This document shows positions 24,530 through 30,901 of a DNA stretch of 36,883 nt, in pieces. Within the stretch, counting starts at the first letter, position 1. Each line of letters opens with the position of its first letter. The translations under genes were made by a program, and so were the position numbers. Source of the DNA: Candidatus Zhuqueibacterota bacterium. Its GTDB lineage: Bacteria > Zhuqueibacterota > Zhuqueibacteria > Residuimicrobiales > Residuimicrobiaceae. The notes under the pieces were generated by a model. That model saw only the letters and a list, made by a program, of their open reading frames with translations, ran no database searches and was not told the DNA's origin. Location: assembly GCA_963169875.1 (NCBI GenBank), contig CAUJEL010000013.1, forward strand, positions 1 to 36,883, in the 5' to 3' direction.

Positions 24530-24558
24530 TTGACATTCATGAGCAAACGCCTTATAAT
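24530..24558 (+). promoter_or_regulatory. Consensus sigma-70 promoter of the TPR gene
   Basis: TTGACA (24530-24535), exactly 17 bases, then TATAAT (24553-24558): a perfect match to the housekeeping consensus. Transcription should begin near 24565, about 30 bases before the ATG at 24596. Confidence 0.85.
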
Positions 24559-24595: not shown

Positions 24596-25267
24596 ATGAA
24601 CACTTCGTCCACGCATCTCATGGACGCCATGGAACTCATGGATGCCTCGCAAATCGATGATTTGACCGCTGCCCTGGAACAAAAAGTCAAAGAAGATCCA
24701 TCGGACATGCGAGCCCTGCTGATGTTGGGAAATGGTTATTATCTGCGCGGCAAGATATCCGAAGCCATCGCCACTTACCAGAAGGCCATACGAGTGAACC
24801 CCCGGCTTCCTTATGCTTATTATTATATGGGCGTCTGTCAGTACCGGTGCATGCGCCTGGACGAGGCCATCGCCACCCTCGAAGAGGCCATTAAAGTGAG
24901 TCCGGTCCTGATCATGGCGCACTACTGGCTCGGCATCGCCTACTACCACAAAGGCCTGTATCAAAAATCGCGTCACGCGTTTGAAATTCTGCTCAAGAAC
25001 AATAAAGAGTCAGCCGTTGCCCATTATCATGCGGCATTGGCATGCATGGCGGACCAGGCTTATGATTGCGCCCTGTTTCACCTCGAGGCTCTGGCAGAAC
25101 GCGGCAACGAAGATCCACAGGTTCAGCTCTATTTGGGCAATGTTTATTATCGTCTTAACCGCATCGAGGATGCCATTGCGGCGTACAAAAAAGGTCTGCA
25201 AAAAAATCCCGAAAACAACCCCTTGCGCGATGCGCTCAAGTATCTAACCGAAGTACAAGAGCCCTGA
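24596..25267 (+). CDS. Tetratricopeptide repeat protein
   Basis: A 223-residue protein made almost entirely of about five TPR units, for example ALLMLGNGYYLRGKISEAIA, AYYYMGVCQYRCMRLDEAIA, AHYWLGIAYYHKGLYQKSRH and VQLYLGNVYYRLNRIEDAIA. No signal peptide or membrane segment, so it is probably cytoplasmic and mediates protein contacts; the partner is unknown. The ATG at 24596 has AGGAGA eight bases upstream. The frame is open back to 24530, but that region is the promoter. A small GAGAC-AGA-GTCTC hairpin follows the stop without a T-run. Confidence 0.8.
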   Translation: MNTSSTHLMDAMELMDASQIDDLTAALEQKVKEDPSDMRALLMLGNGYYLRGKISEAIATYQKAIRVNPRLPYAYYYMGVCQYRCMRLDEAIATLEEAIKVSPVLIMAHYWLGIAYYHKGLYQKSRHAFEILLKNNKESAVAHYHAALACMADQAYDCALFHLEALAERGNEDPQVQLYLGNVYYRLNRIEDAIAAYKKGLQKNPENNPLRDALKYLTEVQEP

Positions 25268-25404: not shown

Positions 25405-26769
25405 ATGTCATTACGCACTGAAAAATGGCAGCACATCGAGAGAGCCCAGAAACATCCCCTGGCGGATGTCGAAGAGCCCAATCTCATGCGAGATATTTTC
25501 CCTTATTCAGAAATCCCCAAAACCATCTTTGACGGCATCACCGTGGACGCACAACCGGCCCCGGAATTGTGGATCACCGATACCACGTTCCGCGATGGCC
25601 AGCAGGCGCGCACACCCTACACGGTGGAGCAGGCCTCTAAAATATTCGACCTGCTGCACCGCCTTTCCGGACCCCATGGCGTCATCCGCGCCTCTGAATT
25701 TTTTATCTATTCGGAAAGAGATCGCGAAGTCCTGGAAGAGGTGCGCAACAAAGGGTATCGCTTTCCGGAAGTGACCTCGTGGATACGCGCCAATCCGCAG
25801 GACTTTGAACTGGTCAGGCAAGTCGGCATCAAAGAGACCGGTCTGTTGACCTCCATTTCCGATTATCATATCTTTTTAAAATTCAAAAAGACGCGGCGCC
25901 AGGTGCTGGACAGTTTCATGCAGGTGGTCCGCGCCGCCGCTGAGGCCGGACTGGAAGCGATCCGCTGCCATTACGAAGATGTGACGCGCGCCGATTTCTG
26001 GGGCTGCGTCGTCCCCTTCACCGAAGAACTGATGAATTTTTCCGCGCGCTCCGGCTTGCGCATCAAGATTCGCCTCTGCGATACCATGGGATACGGCCTG
26101 CCCTATGCCACGGCCGCACTGCCGCGTTCCATCCCCAAAATGATCTTTTACCTGCAACGCGAATTCGGCATTCCCGGCGAACATCTCGAATGGCACGGAC
26201 ACAATGATTTTCATAAAGTGCACATCAACGCGGTTTCCGCCTGGCTCTCCGGCGCCTCCGCCGCAAACGGCACCATTCTCGGATTTGGCGAACGCACCGG
26301 CAATTCACCACTGGAAGGCCTGGCCGTTGAATATGCCTCGCTCACCGGTTCAACCAACGGCATGGACCTCACCGCCATCACCGAGATCGGCGAGTACCTG
26401 CGCGAAATCGGCACGGTCATTCCCGCCAATTTCCCGTTTGTGGGTGAAAATTTTAATGTCACCATGGCCGGCATTCACGCCGATGGCGTGATCAAAAATG
26501 AAGAAATCTATAATATTTTCGATACAGCAGCCATACTGAACCGGCCGCTGGGTGTCCATATCACCGACCGTTCGGGCGTCGCCGGCGTCGGCTACTGGGT
26601 CAACCAACAATTGCAAAAATTGAACAAACCGCCGGTTGACAAACGCGACCCGCGCGTCGCCGCCATCTTTGCGTGGATCGAAGAACAGTACGCCGGCGGC
26701 AGAGTCACCGCTATTTCTCAAGACGAGATGCATCAACAATTTAAACTGCATTTTTCTGAAAACGCCTGA
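25405..26769 (+). CDS. Probable (Re)-citrate synthase, homocitrate/isopropylmalate synthase superfamily
   Basis: A 454-residue DRE-TIM-type aldolase with TFRDGQQ (61-67), HGHND (264-268) and GERTGN (295-300), which bind the divalent metal and acetyl-CoA-derived substrate in this superfamily. It lacks the leucine-binding regulatory domain of LeuA and has an N-terminal extension before WITDTTFRDGQQ. Length and segments such as LHRLSGP, SDYHIF, LPRSI and FVGxxFNVTxAGIHADG agree with what I recall of the Re-specific citrate synthase of Clostridium kluyveri (about 450 residues). That enzyme condenses oxaloacetate and acetyl-CoA. Isocitrate dehydrogenase and aconitase genes nearby support this role. 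Homocitrate or isopropylmalate synthase is the alternative. Ribosome-binding site GGAGGAAGG precedes the ATG. Confidence 0.72.
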   Translation: MSLRTEKWQHIERAQKHPLADVEEPNLMRDIFPYSEIPKTIFDGITVDAQPAPELWITDTTFRDGQQARTPYTVEQASKIFDLLHRLSGPHGVIRASEFFIYSERDREVLEEVRNKGYRFPEVTSWIRANPQDFELVRQVGIKETGLLTSISDYHIFLKFKKTRRQVLDSFMQVVRAAAEAGLEAIRCHYEDVTRADFWGCVVPFTEELMNFSARSGLRIKIRLCDTMGYGLPYATAALPRSIPKMIFYLQREFGIPGEHLEWHGHNDFHKVHINAVSAWLSGASAANGTILGFGERTGNSPLEGLAVEYASLTGSTNGMDLTAITEIGEYLREIGTVIPANFPFVGENFNVTMAGIHADGVIKNEEIYNIFDTAAILNRPLGVHITDRSGVAGVGYWVNQQLQKLNKPPVDKRDPRVAAIFAWIEEQYAGGRVTAISQDEMHQQFKLHFSENA

Positions 26770-26789
26770 TTCGTTGGGCGTTTTCTTTT
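26758..26789 (+). terminator. Intrinsic terminator of the citrate synthase gene
   Basis: GAAAACGCC (26758-26766) pairs perfectly with GGCGTTTTC (26777-26785), loop of ten bases, then TTTT. The left arm overlaps the last codons and the stop lies in the loop side, so termination follows the gene closely. Confidence 0.6.
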
Positions 26790-26818: not shown

Positions 26819-28783
26819 ATGGCAGTGCAAGTCCGCACAAATCCGGCCGTCAAGGTGCCCGCAACGGACCTGACGGCCGTGAAGCGCACCGAGGCGCCCT
26901 TGACCCTGGAAACGCTTTTCGTCTACGGCTCCCTCAACGATGATCACTACTTCCGGCTGATCACGGGTATCACATTGCCCGGACAGCCCGCTGTTCTGCC
27001 CAATTACCGGCGGGTGCAGCCGGAACGTGGATTTGCCTTTGCCATTCCCTGGCAGGGTGACCGCATCGAAGGCCGCCTGCTCACACAAGTCACCCCGGCG
27101 CTGCTCGCCAAACTCGATGAGTATGAATCCGCGGGCACCCTCTACAGCAGAGAGACGGTGCAGGTGTTGGTTGGCAGGCAGACGCTTCCCGCCTATGTCT
27201 ATATCGCCCATCCCGAAGCCCTGCGCCCTTACCTGGAAAAAGGGTTCGCCGAACGTGACCGCATTGAAGAGTACGTCGAACGCAGCGTGCATCGCTACCT
27301 CGAAGCCAAAGCGGATCGCTGCCTGCTGACGGATCGCAAACAGTTGGCTGTCAGCGTGACGCAAGAACTGCTCTCCGAGGAGATTCAGGGGCTCTTGATG
27401 CAGTATTTCCTCGATGATGGCTTGCCGCCCTTTATCATCAAGCATGAAATCGAAAAAGCCAACCTGCCGGATCTCGCCTGGCTGGAAACGGACCGCAAAG
27501 CCCAGCCCTATGCCAGCAACTATCTGGCAATGGCTGTTAAATTTATGGTTTTCAACCAATTGGAGGCCAGGTTCCGCGATGATTTCCGCGGCCACGCCAA
27601 AATAGCCGACGCACTCTATCAGCACACCCTCTCCGCCCTCATGGCCCTCAAGTTGATGGTCGACGCCCAATCCGCCCTCAAGAATGCCATGATCCAGCTT
27701 AAGGTGAACACCCGCCATCCGGATTTCAAGTACCCGGATTATGCCGTGGCTGCCATCTTTATCGCCGAGGAACTTTATCAGGCGAACAAGGCTCAGGAGA
27801 TCGCCGATTGGGTCCGGGATCATCACTGCGATGGCGTATCCCCTCTGGGCGCGGAATTGGAATTCTCTCCGCTTGGCGTGCGCGCCGTCTCCGCCCGCGA
27901 AGGCGAAGACCCGCAGTTTGACAGTTTCTACTATTTTTATGATTTTGATTTGATGCGCCGCGGCTGGAAATTGGGGGCGCACATCGATGACCATGGGTTT
28001 GTCGCCGCGCAGCAGCAGCGTTCCCGTGGATTCATGGAACTCGCGTTTGGCCGCTACCGCCTCCTCGGCGATGTCTCCAAGCCCGCCACCCAGGATCCCT
28101 GGGTCCTGGCCAAACTCATCGATCTGGCGGTGCGAATGATCGATATCCGGCCGCACTCCCTGCACATCAGCATTCAGGCCGATGCGGACGTGCCCTTCAA
28201 ACGGCTCGAGAACCCCGAGTTCTTTCTCTGCCTCCTGCTGCTCGGCGGCGACCTCCGTGAAGATAACGACGGCAAGCTTCGTGAAATGCGCATTTTCCAC
28301 CAGGAAATTCTCCATCCCGACATGGGCGTCTACCTGTCGCGCCTGAACCGCCATCACCAGAATCCCAAAGACAACCGCTGGCAGTCCGTGGTCGAATATC
28401 AATTTCCCAGACTCTACTACGATTATGATTATCAACCGCTGATCCTGGCGCTGAAAGGCTTTCAGCGCGGCGCCAATCCCTATCCGTTCAAGGACTGCCA
28501 TGACTGTCCGGACCAGGAGCTGCACAAGGAAGTGGAGATCGCCTTGAAGCAGTGGGCGACCTTCCCGGCCGCGCTGTCGGACCAGACTCTGAACGATTTT
28601 ATGCAGGTCGTGGCGGCTGGACTCGACGCAGAAGCGTCCAGCGCCGGGCCAGCCTACCGCGCATACGTCACCAGTCAATTACAAATCATCGAACGGCAGT
28701 TGCGCCGTCGCAACCAGCGCATCCTGGATTATCACCAGCGCATCAAACTGCAGCAGCACCGGCAAACCGGAAAATTGGAGTGA
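26819..28783 (+). CDS. Fusion of a gamma-glutamylcyclotransferase-like domain and an amidoligase-like domain
   Basis: A 654-residue cytoplasmic-type protein. Residues about 30-145 look like the GGCT/AIG2 fold: the FVYGSL loop, then LDEYESAGTLYSRETVQV, where the E of DEYE would be the catalytic acid, and AYVYI. A helical middle (about 150-335) is unassigned. From about 342 the GAELEFSPLG motif, HSLHISIQ (about 443), REMRIFHQE and VEYQFPR resemble the glutamine-synthetase-like ligases (glutamate-cysteine ligase and amidoligase families), which form amide bonds using ATP. The C-terminus is charged and helical. The role is not known; making and removing a gamma-glutamyl-type amide is one inference. 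The ATG at 26819 has no clear ribosome-binding site, so the start is uncertain. The next gene starts seven bases after the stop. Confidence 0.6.
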   Translation: MAVQVRTNPAVKVPATDLTAVKRTEAPLTLETLFVYGSLNDDHYFRLITGITLPGQPAVLPNYRRVQPERGFAFAIPWQGDRIEGRLLTQVTPALLAKLDEYESAGTLYSRETVQVLVGRQTLPAYVYIAHPEALRPYLEKGFAERDRIEEYVERSVHRYLEAKADRCLLTDRKQLAVSVTQELLSEEIQGLLMQYFLDDGLPPFIIKHEIEKANLPDLAWLETDRKAQPYASNYLAMAVKFMVFNQLEARFRDDFRGHAKIADALYQHTLSALMALKLMVDAQSALKNAMIQLKVNTRHPDFKYPDYAVAAIFIAEELYQANKAQEIADWVRDHHCDGVSPLGAELEFSPLGVRAVSAREGEDPQFDSFYYFYDFDLMRRGWKLGAHIDDHGFVAAQQQRSRGFMELAFGRYRLLGDVSKPATQDPWVLAKLIDLAVRMIDIRPHSLHISIQADADVPFKRLENPEFFLCLLLLGGDLREDNDGKLREMRIFHQEILHPDMGVYLSRLNRHHQNPKDNRWQSVVEYQFPRLYYDYDYQPLILALKGFQRGANPYPFKDCHDCPDQELHKEVEIALKQWATFPAALSDQTLNDFMQVVAAGLDAEASSAGPAYRAYVTSQLQIIERQLRRRNQRILDYHQRIKLQQHRQTGKLE

Positions 28784-28789
28784 GCGTAC

Positions 28790-29308
28790 GTGAAAGCCCT
28801 TGAAGATGTTATCATCGCCACTCTCACGGCAAACCAGAATGCCCTCATCTCTGCGGTGTGCTGCTCACTGCAAAAGTATGCGGACTCTCATTACGCCGTC
28901 ATCTCCTTTGAACAGCATCAGGACCGCGAGGAAGCGCTGTTAGATGCCTTTCTCACCGGTTTGCAGGAGCCTGATCATCGCGCCTATCTCGACTATGTGG
29001 TCATCAACGCAGGCTTGCGCTCAAGCGAGGGTTATTCACTGGAAGAGGTGCAGAAGGCGCTGTTCTTTTTTGAAGAAGCCGTATGGCAAACGCTGGTGCA
29101 GGCACACCCCTGCGATCTTGAACTGGTGGAAATGCTGGCGTTCTGCACCCGCATCTTCACCCGTGGCCGCGACGTACTGGCACAGATTTATCTGCAAAAA
29201 TCGCTGCACACACAGATCGAACTGGACGATTTACGGGAAAAATTTCAATCCTATCTTAACAGCTCACAAACCACGCCTGGATTGCCAGGCCCGGTAACTA
29301 ACCCATAA
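28790..29308 (+). CDS. Small helical protein, RsbRD N-terminal-like
   Basis: A 172-residue, mostly helical protein without signal peptide or membrane segment. The pattern with a LLDAFLTGLQ helix followed by RSSEGYSLEEVQKALFFFEEAVWQTL resembles the N-terminal domain of RsbRD-type stressosome and sensor proteins, which usually sits in front of STAS or kinase domains; here it stands alone, with a Pro/Thr-rich tail. The assignment is from pattern only. The start is GTG at 28790 with GGAG nine bases upstream that overlaps the end of the fusion gene, so translation is probably coupled. It is followed after nine bases by the isocitrate dehydrogenase gene. Confidence 0.5.
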   Translation: MKALEDVIIATLTANQNALISAVCCSLQKYADSHYAVISFEQHQDREEALLDAFLTGLQEPDHRAYLDYVVINAGLRSSEGYSLEEVQKALFFFEEAVWQTLVQAHPCDLELVEMLAFCTRIFTRGRDVLAQIYLQKSLHTQIELDDLREKFQSYLNSSQTTPGLPGPVTNP

Positions 29309-29317
29309 GGAGAAATC

Positions 29318-30514
29318 ATGAACAACGAGGTTTTGGATCGCGCAAAAGAGCATTTTGGCAAATTGGTGGCAGAACAACTGGCACGCGTCGAACGCATGAA
29401 GCAGGCGCAGCAGGCACCGGACTTTAGCACCTTAAAGCCCATCATCATCGGCTTCTGTTGGGGCGACGGAATTGGTCCGATCATCTCCCAGGAAACACAA
29501 CGCGTCATGGAATATCTGCTGGAAAAAGAAGTGGCGGATAAACGCGTTGATTTTCGCACCATCGAGGGTTTGACCATCGAAAACCGCGTCAAACACCTCA
29601 AGGCCATCCCCGATGACGTCCTCGAAGAGCTGAGGGCTTGCCATGTCATTCTCAAAGCCCCGACCACAACCCCGGAAAAAGGCGGGCCCTATCCCAACAT
29701 CGAAAGCGCCAATGTCGCCATGCGCCGCGAACTCGACCTCTTTGCCAATGTGCGTCCGGTCAAGGTTCCCAAAGAAAACGTGGACTGGATTTTCTTCCGC
29801 GAAAATACCGAAGGCGCCTACATCCTCGGCAGCAAAGGCATCCAGATCACCGATGACCTGGCCATCGATTTCACCGCCGCAACCCTGCAGGGCTCCGAGC
29901 GCATCATTCGCATGGCGTTCGAGTATGCCGCGAAGAATAATATCAACCGCCTCACGGTGGTGACCAAAGCCAATGTCATCAAAACCACGGACGGCCTGTT
30001 CCTGGAAACCGCCGAACGCATCGCCAAAGAGTATCCCCAGGTCAAATGGGATTCGTGGTATATCGATATCATGACGGCCAAACTGATCGACCCGAAGCGG
30101 CGCACGCAATTCCGCGTCGTGGTGTTGCCGAATCTCTATGGCGACATCATCACTGATGAGGCCGCCGAGTTCCAGGGCGGCGTTGGCACCGCGGGCAGCG
30201 CCAATATCGGCACGCGCTACTCCATGTTCGAAGCCATTCATGGCTCCGCCCCGCGCATGATCGATGAAGGCCGCGGCCAGTACGCAGACCCCAGCAGTCT
30301 GATCCGCGCCGCCGCCATGATGATCCGTCACATTGGTTTTGGCGGCAAGGCCGACCAGCTGGAAATGGCCCTGGATATCTGCAGCCAGTTCGAGAAAGAG
30401 GTGGTGATCACCGGTCGTGAAGGCGGCGCCACCGGCCGTCAGTTCTGCGACTATCTGCTCGAGACCATGAAGGATCCTTATCTGCAGAAACGCTGGCAGG
30501 CGCTGGCGCAGTAA
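29318..30514 (+). CDS. icd: Isocitrate dehydrogenase (isocitrate/isopropylmalate dehydrogenase family)
   Basis: A 398-residue beta-decarboxylating dehydrogenase. The substrate-loop region APTTTPEKGGPYPNIES and the helix ANVAMRRELDLFANVRPV (131-148), RENTEGAY (161-168), NLYGD (272-276) and EAIHGSAP (305-312) are family signatures. It would oxidise isocitrate to 2-oxoglutarate and CO2; NAD or NADP preference cannot be read with confidence. Isopropylmalate or homoisocitrate dehydrogenase are alternatives, but the citrate synthase-like and aconitase genes nearby favour isocitrate. An N-terminal extension of about 40 residues precedes the first strand. The ATG at 29318 follows AGGAGA and lies nine bases after the helical gene, so the three genes form one operon. 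Confidence 0.75.
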   Translation: MNNEVLDRAKEHFGKLVAEQLARVERMKQAQQAPDFSTLKPIIIGFCWGDGIGPIISQETQRVMEYLLEKEVADKRVDFRTIEGLTIENRVKHLKAIPDDVLEELRACHVILKAPTTTPEKGGPYPNIESANVAMRRELDLFANVRPVKVPKENVDWIFFRENTEGAYILGSKGIQITDDLAIDFTAATLQGSERIIRMAFEYAAKNNINRLTVVTKANVIKTTDGLFLETAERIAKEYPQVKWDSWYIDIMTAKLIDPKRRTQFRVVVLPNLYGDIITDEAAEFQGGVGTAGSANIGTRYSMFEAIHGSAPRMIDEGRGQYADPSSLIRAAAMMIRHIGFGGKADQLEMALDICSQFEKEVVITGREGGATGRQFCDYLLETMKDPYLQKRWQALAQ

Positions 30515-30747: not shown

Positions 30748-30811
30748 TGCACCGCCCCGGCGTGATGCGGGGATTTTCCCGATGAATTTTTGCAGCACAA
30801 GGTTCGTTGTA

Positions 30812-30833
30812 CCGCATTTATGCGGCCTTTTTT
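30812..30833 (+). terminator. Small terminator-like hairpin in the lutA leader
   Basis: CCGCA (30812-30816) pairs with TGCGG (30821-30825), extendable by one A/T pair, followed by CC and six T (30828-30833). It lies 68 bases before lutA and could end icd read-through or attenuate lut transcription. Confidence 0.5.
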
Positions 30834-30901
30834 ATCAGGCTGAAGCCTGAACGACCAACATCACCTAAATCCGTCATCCATGTCACCAAACGGGACAAAC
30901 T

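Follow-up and report, generated by a model that had tools for sequence, protein, structure and literature searches.

A gamma-glutamyl cyclotransferase domain and a predicted glutamine synthetase-fold ligase domain in one polypeptide: a likely bifunctional protein of two uncultivated phyla, encoded beside probable citrate-cycle genes in KSB1

Results

Gene order at the locus

The stretch of DNA analysed here (36,883 nt, referred to as the window) contains a probable operon on the forward strand, which opens with a TPR-repeat protein gene behind a sigma-70-type promoter, continues through genes for an HMGL-like synthase, a fusion protein and a short protein without a family to an isocitrate/isopropylmalate-type dehydrogenase gene, and probably ends at terminator-like hairpins (Table 1). 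The promoter overlaps the TTG that mechanical calling took as the start of the TPR gene, whose true start is probably the ATG at 24596. A further terminator-like hairpin lies between the synthase and fusion genes, so that the two may not be equally expressed in this genome, and attenuation may occur in this lineage.

Table 1. Features of the locus, with positions in the window; residue numbers refer to the fusion protein
Feature	Position	Strand	Remarks
Sigma-70-type promoter, TTGACA-17-TATAAT	24530..24558	+	12/12 consensus matches
TPR-repeat protein	24596..25267	+	Opens the probable operon; AGGAG precedes the ATG
HMGL-like synthase, probable Re-citrate synthase	25405..26769	+	PF00682, E=6e-29
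Terminator-like hairpin and T-run	26758..26789	+	MFE -15.2 kcal/mol, z -3.2; between synthase and fusion genes
Fusion gene	26819..28783	+	654 aa; GGCT-fold, helical middle, predicted GS-fold ligase-like domain, C-terminal helices
GGACT/AIG2-like gamma-glutamyl(amine) cyclotransferase domain	26915..27214	+	Residues 33-132
E103 of the GGCT domain, predicted to be its catalytic acid/base Glu	27125..27127	+	Alignment with E82 of human GGACT
Middle domain	27254..27823	+	Residues ~146-335, ~190 aa; all-helical (DSSP on the predicted model)
GS-superfamily ligase-like domain (predicted)	27824..28498	+	Residues 336-560; Foldseek matches, conservation
GAELEF, GhExE motif (E346, E348)	27848..27865	+	Residues 344-349; alignment of 22 sequences
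D390 (W-K-L-G-x-H-x-D), candidate active-site Asp	27986..27988	+	Invariant
E407 in RGF(L/M)E(L/Y)AFGR, candidate metal ligand	28037..28039	+	Invariant
PHSLHIS	28151..28171	+	Residues 445-451; H446 invariant, H449 replaced by Q in one relative
VEYQFPR	28391..28411	+	Residues 525-531; E526 and R531 invariant
C-terminal helical segment	28499..28768	+	Residues 561-650; fastest-evolving part
172-aa protein	28790..29308	+	No family; GTG start; beside the fusion gene in 11/14 genomes
Isocitrate/isopropylmalate-type dehydrogenase, probable isocitrate dehydrogenase	29318..30514	+	PF00180, E=5e-66
Terminator-like hairpins after the dehydrogenase	30768..30835	+	Probable operon end

The fusion gene and its occurrence

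The sequence-only reading had described the product of the fusion gene as a single protein carrying a set of short motifs, and these were borne out at their places: FVYGSL at residues 34-39, LDEYE at 99-103, GAELEF at 344-349, HSLHISI at 446-452 and VEYQFPR at 525-531. The ORF is real, far beyond chance; a 645-aa minus-strand ORF overlapping it was rejected as a shadow ORF opposite GC-rich coding sequence. The gene is single-copy in its 5.0 Mb host genome and encodes a small, soluble-looking protein. Between the two closest relatives dN/dS is 0.10 in the GGCT part, 0.05 in the middle and 0.04 in the ligase part, and conservation is highest in the ligase half, where identity across phyla is 47-53%, compared with 32-40% in GGCT. 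The middle domain is kept in both phyla and has no Pfam match. This domain, the citrate-cycle neighbours and the conservation over two phyla go beyond the sequence-only reading.

The fusion protein occurs in 14 of the 22 genomes of its own KSB1 order but not in any of the further 60 genomes of the KSB1 phylum that were searched. The view that it is private to KSB1 was nevertheless dropped, since relatives exist in a second phylum: a wider genome sample yielded two second-phylum genomes with the fusion, and a search of that phylum then found it in 8 of 44. Full-length relatives are 53-83% identical within the order and ~37% identical in the second phylum. Every complete gene of both phyla encodes GGCT, middle and ligase parts as one chain in the same order. 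In G400 (L169 6918-8780) a single in-frame stop separates the GGCT part of the gene from the ligase part, perhaps because the gene is broken or the assembly faulty at this point; this case aside, separately encoded domains were never seen across the two phyla.

No other kind of GGCT-ligase pairing turned up among 290 genomes scanned for GGACT, inspection having covered only the two longest open frames, and no relatives of the ligase half were found in phages, plasmids or viral contigs. Several candidates were set aside. A long frame with a GGACT match in G282 simply stays open because the DNA is GC-rich, and in G151 (L174 1480-2586) a GGCT-fold domain is followed by an unrelated C-terminal half, perhaps an amidohydrolase; neither is a GGCT plus a ligase. 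Two ORFs of ~640 aa in other KSB1 genomes, which match GCS2 weakly, are not relatives, having GCS2-like motifs and C-terminal CBS-like repeats. These proteins (L133 1241-3160 and L134 2066-3988) carry GAEQE, FQVHFQ and RIENR followed by the CBS-like repeats, and by their motifs may represent another uncharacterised ligase fusion in the KSB1 phylum. A literature search on a GGCT-ligase fusion found no paper. The GGCT-middle-ligase architecture is undescribed and kept whole across two uncultivated phyla.

The N-terminal cyclotransferase domain

The sequence-only reading of a GGCT-like N terminus is supported. Residues 33-132 match the Pfam family GGACT (PF06094) with E=1e-17 and 65.3 bits against a cut-off of 22.8; the same family is matched in the five second-phylum fusion proteins checked, with 60-67 bits; a 12-sequence profile of the N-terminal domain retrieves the AIG2-like/GGACT structures 2g0q, 2jqv, 1xhs, 1vkb and 3jub from the PDB; and the full-length model matches GGCT/GGACT structures in Foldseek with probability 1.00. 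In these alignments E103, which closes LDEYE, falls on the glutamate of LDDFE in GGACT; this is E82 of the human enzyme, its acid/base Glu, and the substrates of GGACT are gamma-glutamylamines (PMC7022552). The glutamate that the sequence-only reading had singled out thus falls at the GGCT active site, and within the matched stretch 3jud, the E82Q mutant, differs from 3jub by an E-to-Q exchange at the position equivalent to E103.

Together with the Y36-G37-S/T38-L39 loop (YGSL or YGTL), E103 is kept in every relative that covers the region, in both phyla, and F34, Y36, G37, L39, E103 and R111 are invariant over the two phyla. Given the Pfam and PDB matches, the conserved loop and E103, and the dN/dS of 0.10, residues 33-132 very probably form an active cyclotransferase. 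Neither another PF06094 protein nor a GCS2 protein was found in the host genome, which would argue against a role in glutathione metabolism.

A ligase-like domain at the C terminus

AlphaFold models were obtained for the full-length protein (pLDDT 69, pTM 0.61) and for residues 326-654 (pLDDT 73, pTM 0.78); in both, the core at about residues 350-420 is poorly modelled (pLDDT <50), as is the active-site loop. With the C-terminal model, of pLDDT 73 and with a poor core, Foldseek retrieved PafA (4bjr) with probability 1.00 and E 3.5e-4, followed by Dop (4b0r, 0.99; 7oy3, 0.95; 7oyh, 0.91), PafA (4b0t, 0.87), glutamine synthetase (8fbp, 0.66) and GshF (3ln7, up to 0.57). Its PDB matches at probability >0.4 are exclusively GS-superfamily ligases and deamidases, and no other fold exceeds 0.2 among the 50 matches listed. 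The full-length model likewise matches PafA (0.90) and Dop (0.84); it also matches abalone lysin, presumably through a helical part of the protein. In a viral structure library the C-terminal domain found only weak amidoligase matches.

At the level of sequence, residues 326-654 gave nothing convincing in Pfam, NCBIfam, PHROGs or the PDB, whether searched with phmmer or with 13- and 19-row profiles. Alignment by hhalign to self-built alignments of phage amidoligases (11 sequences), GCS2 and Pup ligases did not rise above controls consisting of 20 column-shuffled alignments. For Amidoligase_2 (PF12224) there was no Pfam match and the hhalign score lay within the shuffled controls; for the Pup ligase/Dop family (PF03136) there was no Pfam match and the score lay below the controls; for GCS2 (PF04107) there was no Pfam match and the score did not exceed the controls; and the COOH-NH2 ligase family (PF14395) was not matched. 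The host genome yielded no PF03136 protein. The ligase-like domain is therefore new as far as sequence comparison goes, and its membership of any named family is unsupported by sequence.

The motifs of this half were compared over 22 sequences from the two phyla. In GAELE (residues 344-348), G344, A345, E346 and E348 are invariant in 22/22 sequences, and GhExE is the ATP-binding motif of the GS-like superfamily (PMC7947786). The region around D390 appears to be ordered like the W-x5-D-x-S-L-R-x-G-x-E of phage amidoligases, and the succession GhExE - D - E - H - E/R along the chain is that of the superfamily. A GS-superfamily ligase-like fold for residues 336-560 is, on the predicted models, likely, the evidence being at the level of fold alone. 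Of the amidoligase-like C terminus put forward in the sequence-only reading, the GS-like fold is supported by a separate structure prediction of this half, which retrieved PafA, Dop, GS and GshF with a model of moderate quality; attribution to PF12224 found no support in sequence.

Neighbouring genes in KSB1 and in the second phylum

In every sufficiently long contig of the KSB1 order the fusion gene lies directly 3' of the HMGL-like synthase gene, and in several genomes of the order the two overlap or sit a few bases apart. A close ortholog of the synthase (at least 72% identity) is present in 14/14 fusion genomes and 0/8 non-fusion genomes, a count over related genomes to which no independent-sample statistic applies. 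The synthase reached no NCBIfam equivalog. Full-domain Si-citrate synthase (PF00285) was found in 2 of the 14 fusion genomes, and weak partial PF00285 matches occur in four more, within frames of ~910-930 aa. Because Si-citrate synthase is scarce in the fusion genomes and Re-citrate synthase belongs to the homocitrate/isopropylmalate synthase group (PMC12016533), we consider the HMGL-like protein a probable Re-citrate synthase. A second HMGL-like paralog, 53-54% identical (L135 G000:C203, L136, L177, L181), is present in both fusion and non-fusion genomes, with sugar-metabolism-looking surroundings in the genomes read.

Downstream of the fusion gene, the usual order is the 172-aa protein and then the isocitrate-dehydrogenase-like gene, followed either by long ORFs resembling aconitase and malate/lactate dehydrogenase (N-termini only) or by a lactate-utilisation cluster; in several genomes the synthase adjoins the isocitrate dehydrogenase. 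The best NCBIfam model for the dehydrogenase in the window is NADP isocitrate dehydrogenase, under its cut-off. The 172-aa protein was dropped as an obligatory partner, being missing beside the fusion gene in three genomes; it evolves fast, and other loci within the class encode weak homologs of it.

The neighbours differ in the second phylum, where apt (named from sequence only) lies upstream of the fusion gene in three genomes, a glutaminyl-tRNA synthetase gene (glnS) lies downstream in one, and a malic enzyme gene is divergently adjacent in two genomes of one family, a third malic-enzyme neighbour (G408) being suggested by an antisense frame only. The citrate-cycle link of the fusion is therefore lineage-specific; the theme that recurs is C4/C5-acid and glutamine/glutamate metabolism.

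Discussion

The analyses presented here suggest that the fusion protein is likely to be a bifunctional ligase/cyclotransferase. In the mechanism that we favour, the GS-fold half would use ATP to activate a carboxylate and would join it to an amine, the gamma-carboxyl group of either glutamate or a glutamate residue being the most likely carboxylate, and the GGACT half would take gamma-glutamyl groups off amines by cyclising them to 5-oxoproline by way of E103; both may act on one gamma-glutamyl amide, formed on a metabolite amine or on a protein lysine. PafA-type enzymes phosphorylate a gamma-glutamyl group and then ligate it to lysine (PMC7947786). The bond that PafA makes is gamma-glutamyl-lysine, and the compounds on which GGACT acts are gamma-glutamylamines, so that the halves of the fusion protein would run in opposite chemical directions; since opposite activities in one chain usually amount to a regulated switch, they may form an add-and-remove switch of this kind. 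A futile cycle of opposed halves would, as a counterpoint, need regulation. The protein may serve central carbon/glutamate metabolism, being co-encoded in KSB1 with the probable Re-citrate synthase and isocitrate dehydrogenase, a place to which control of the 2-oxoglutarate/glutamate supply would be well suited. To the whole of this reading, in which the opposed ligase and cyclotransferase halves act as a regulated add-and-remove switch in carbon/glutamate metabolism, we give a tentative probability of about 0.45.

Parts of this arrangement have counterparts in known systems. Human GGACT (PF06094; 3jub/3juc/3jud) resembles residues 33-132 in Pfam family, in the YGS/TL loop and in the position of the catalytic Glu, but it is a stand-alone protein of ~150 aa, whereas here the domain is fused to ~500 more residues. 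PafA and Dop (PF03136) are the best fold matches of the C-terminal half and have GhExE in common with it, and both handle the gamma-glutamyl-to-lysine bond (PMC7947786); they have no sequence similarity to the fusion protein, however, and the GGCT and middle domains are missing from PafA. The module of phage HTN1 places a GGCT and a GS-fold amidoligase in one functional group, with a motif order like that of the fusion, but the phage and bacterial amidoligase modules consist of separate genes with further partners (PF12224, PF14395, GAT, ATP-grasp), and the ligase half described here matches neither PF12224 nor PF14395.

In butirosin synthesis a gamma-glutamyl group is added by the ligase BtrJ, which is of the ATP-grasp type, and removed by the GGCT-fold protein BtrG. 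These are two separate proteins of an antibiotic cluster, and no antibiotic genes were noticed near the fusion gene; the fold of BtrG has been named as GGCT (PMC12756093).

We suggest that, if the halves are not opposed, both may still be active: the ligase would then join a citrate-cycle acid (citrate, isocitrate or 2-oxoglutarate) or another carboxylate to an amine, with the GGCT domain acting on a different gamma-glutamyl compound or at a later step. GS-fold ligases use varied carboxylates, the KSB1 gene lies among citrate-cycle genes and a malic enzyme is the neighbour in one second-phylum family, all of which would suit such an arrangement. A GGCT fused to a ligase that is not a gamma-glutamyl ligase would be an odd pairing, however, and phage modules group GGCT with amidoligase, so that we hold this to be rather unlikely, if worth bearing in mind.

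Less probable again is that the C-terminal domain is a deamidase or isopeptidase resembling Dop, and that the protein does no more than remove gamma-glutamyl modifications, by two routes. Dop structures are indeed among the best fold matches, and Dop and PafA have a common fold with small loop differences (PMC7947786), but PafA and GS are matched too, hydrolysis is exceptional among superfamily members (PMC7947786), and a second eraser in the same chain would be superfluous. We also think it very improbable that the GGCT-fold domain has no catalytic role and serves in binding or regulation, leaving the ligase as the sole enzyme: although conservation is lower in the GGCT part than in the ligase part, the invariance of F34, Y36, G37, L39, E103 and R111 over two phyla and the dN/dS of 0.10 speak for catalysis, and an acid/base Glu would be needless in a binding module. 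That the C-terminal domain is an unrelated new fold, and that a low-confidence model and a GxExE-like motif have misled us, is most improbable of all, since against the pLDDT of 73, the core below 50 and the lack of profile similarity stand two independent models that retrieve PafA/Dop, the absence of any rival fold above 0.4 in the C-terminal region, and a motif order that agrees with the superfamily.

Returning to the favoured reading of opposed halves, AceK (the isocitrate dehydrogenase kinase/phosphatase) and GlnE hold opposite modifying activities in one polypeptide, in citrate-cycle and nitrogen control. Their likeness to the fusion protein is one of analogy, as folds and chemistry differ and the target of the fusion protein is hypothetical. 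By that analogy a more specific proposal can be framed, which we regard as a long shot: that one chain writes and erases a gamma-glutamyl isopeptide on a lysine of Re-citrate synthase, isocitrate dehydrogenase or the 172-aa neighbour, with a PafA-like writer and a GGACT eraser that releases 5-oxoproline, and so tunes the supply of 2-oxoglutarate and glutamate as AceK does with phosphate in enterobacteria. If both halves share one bond, the fusion protein would offer a single-gene tool for reversible gamma-glutamylation and would add a further level of control where carbon enters the oxidative citrate cycle in organisms that apparently rely on Re-citrate synthase.
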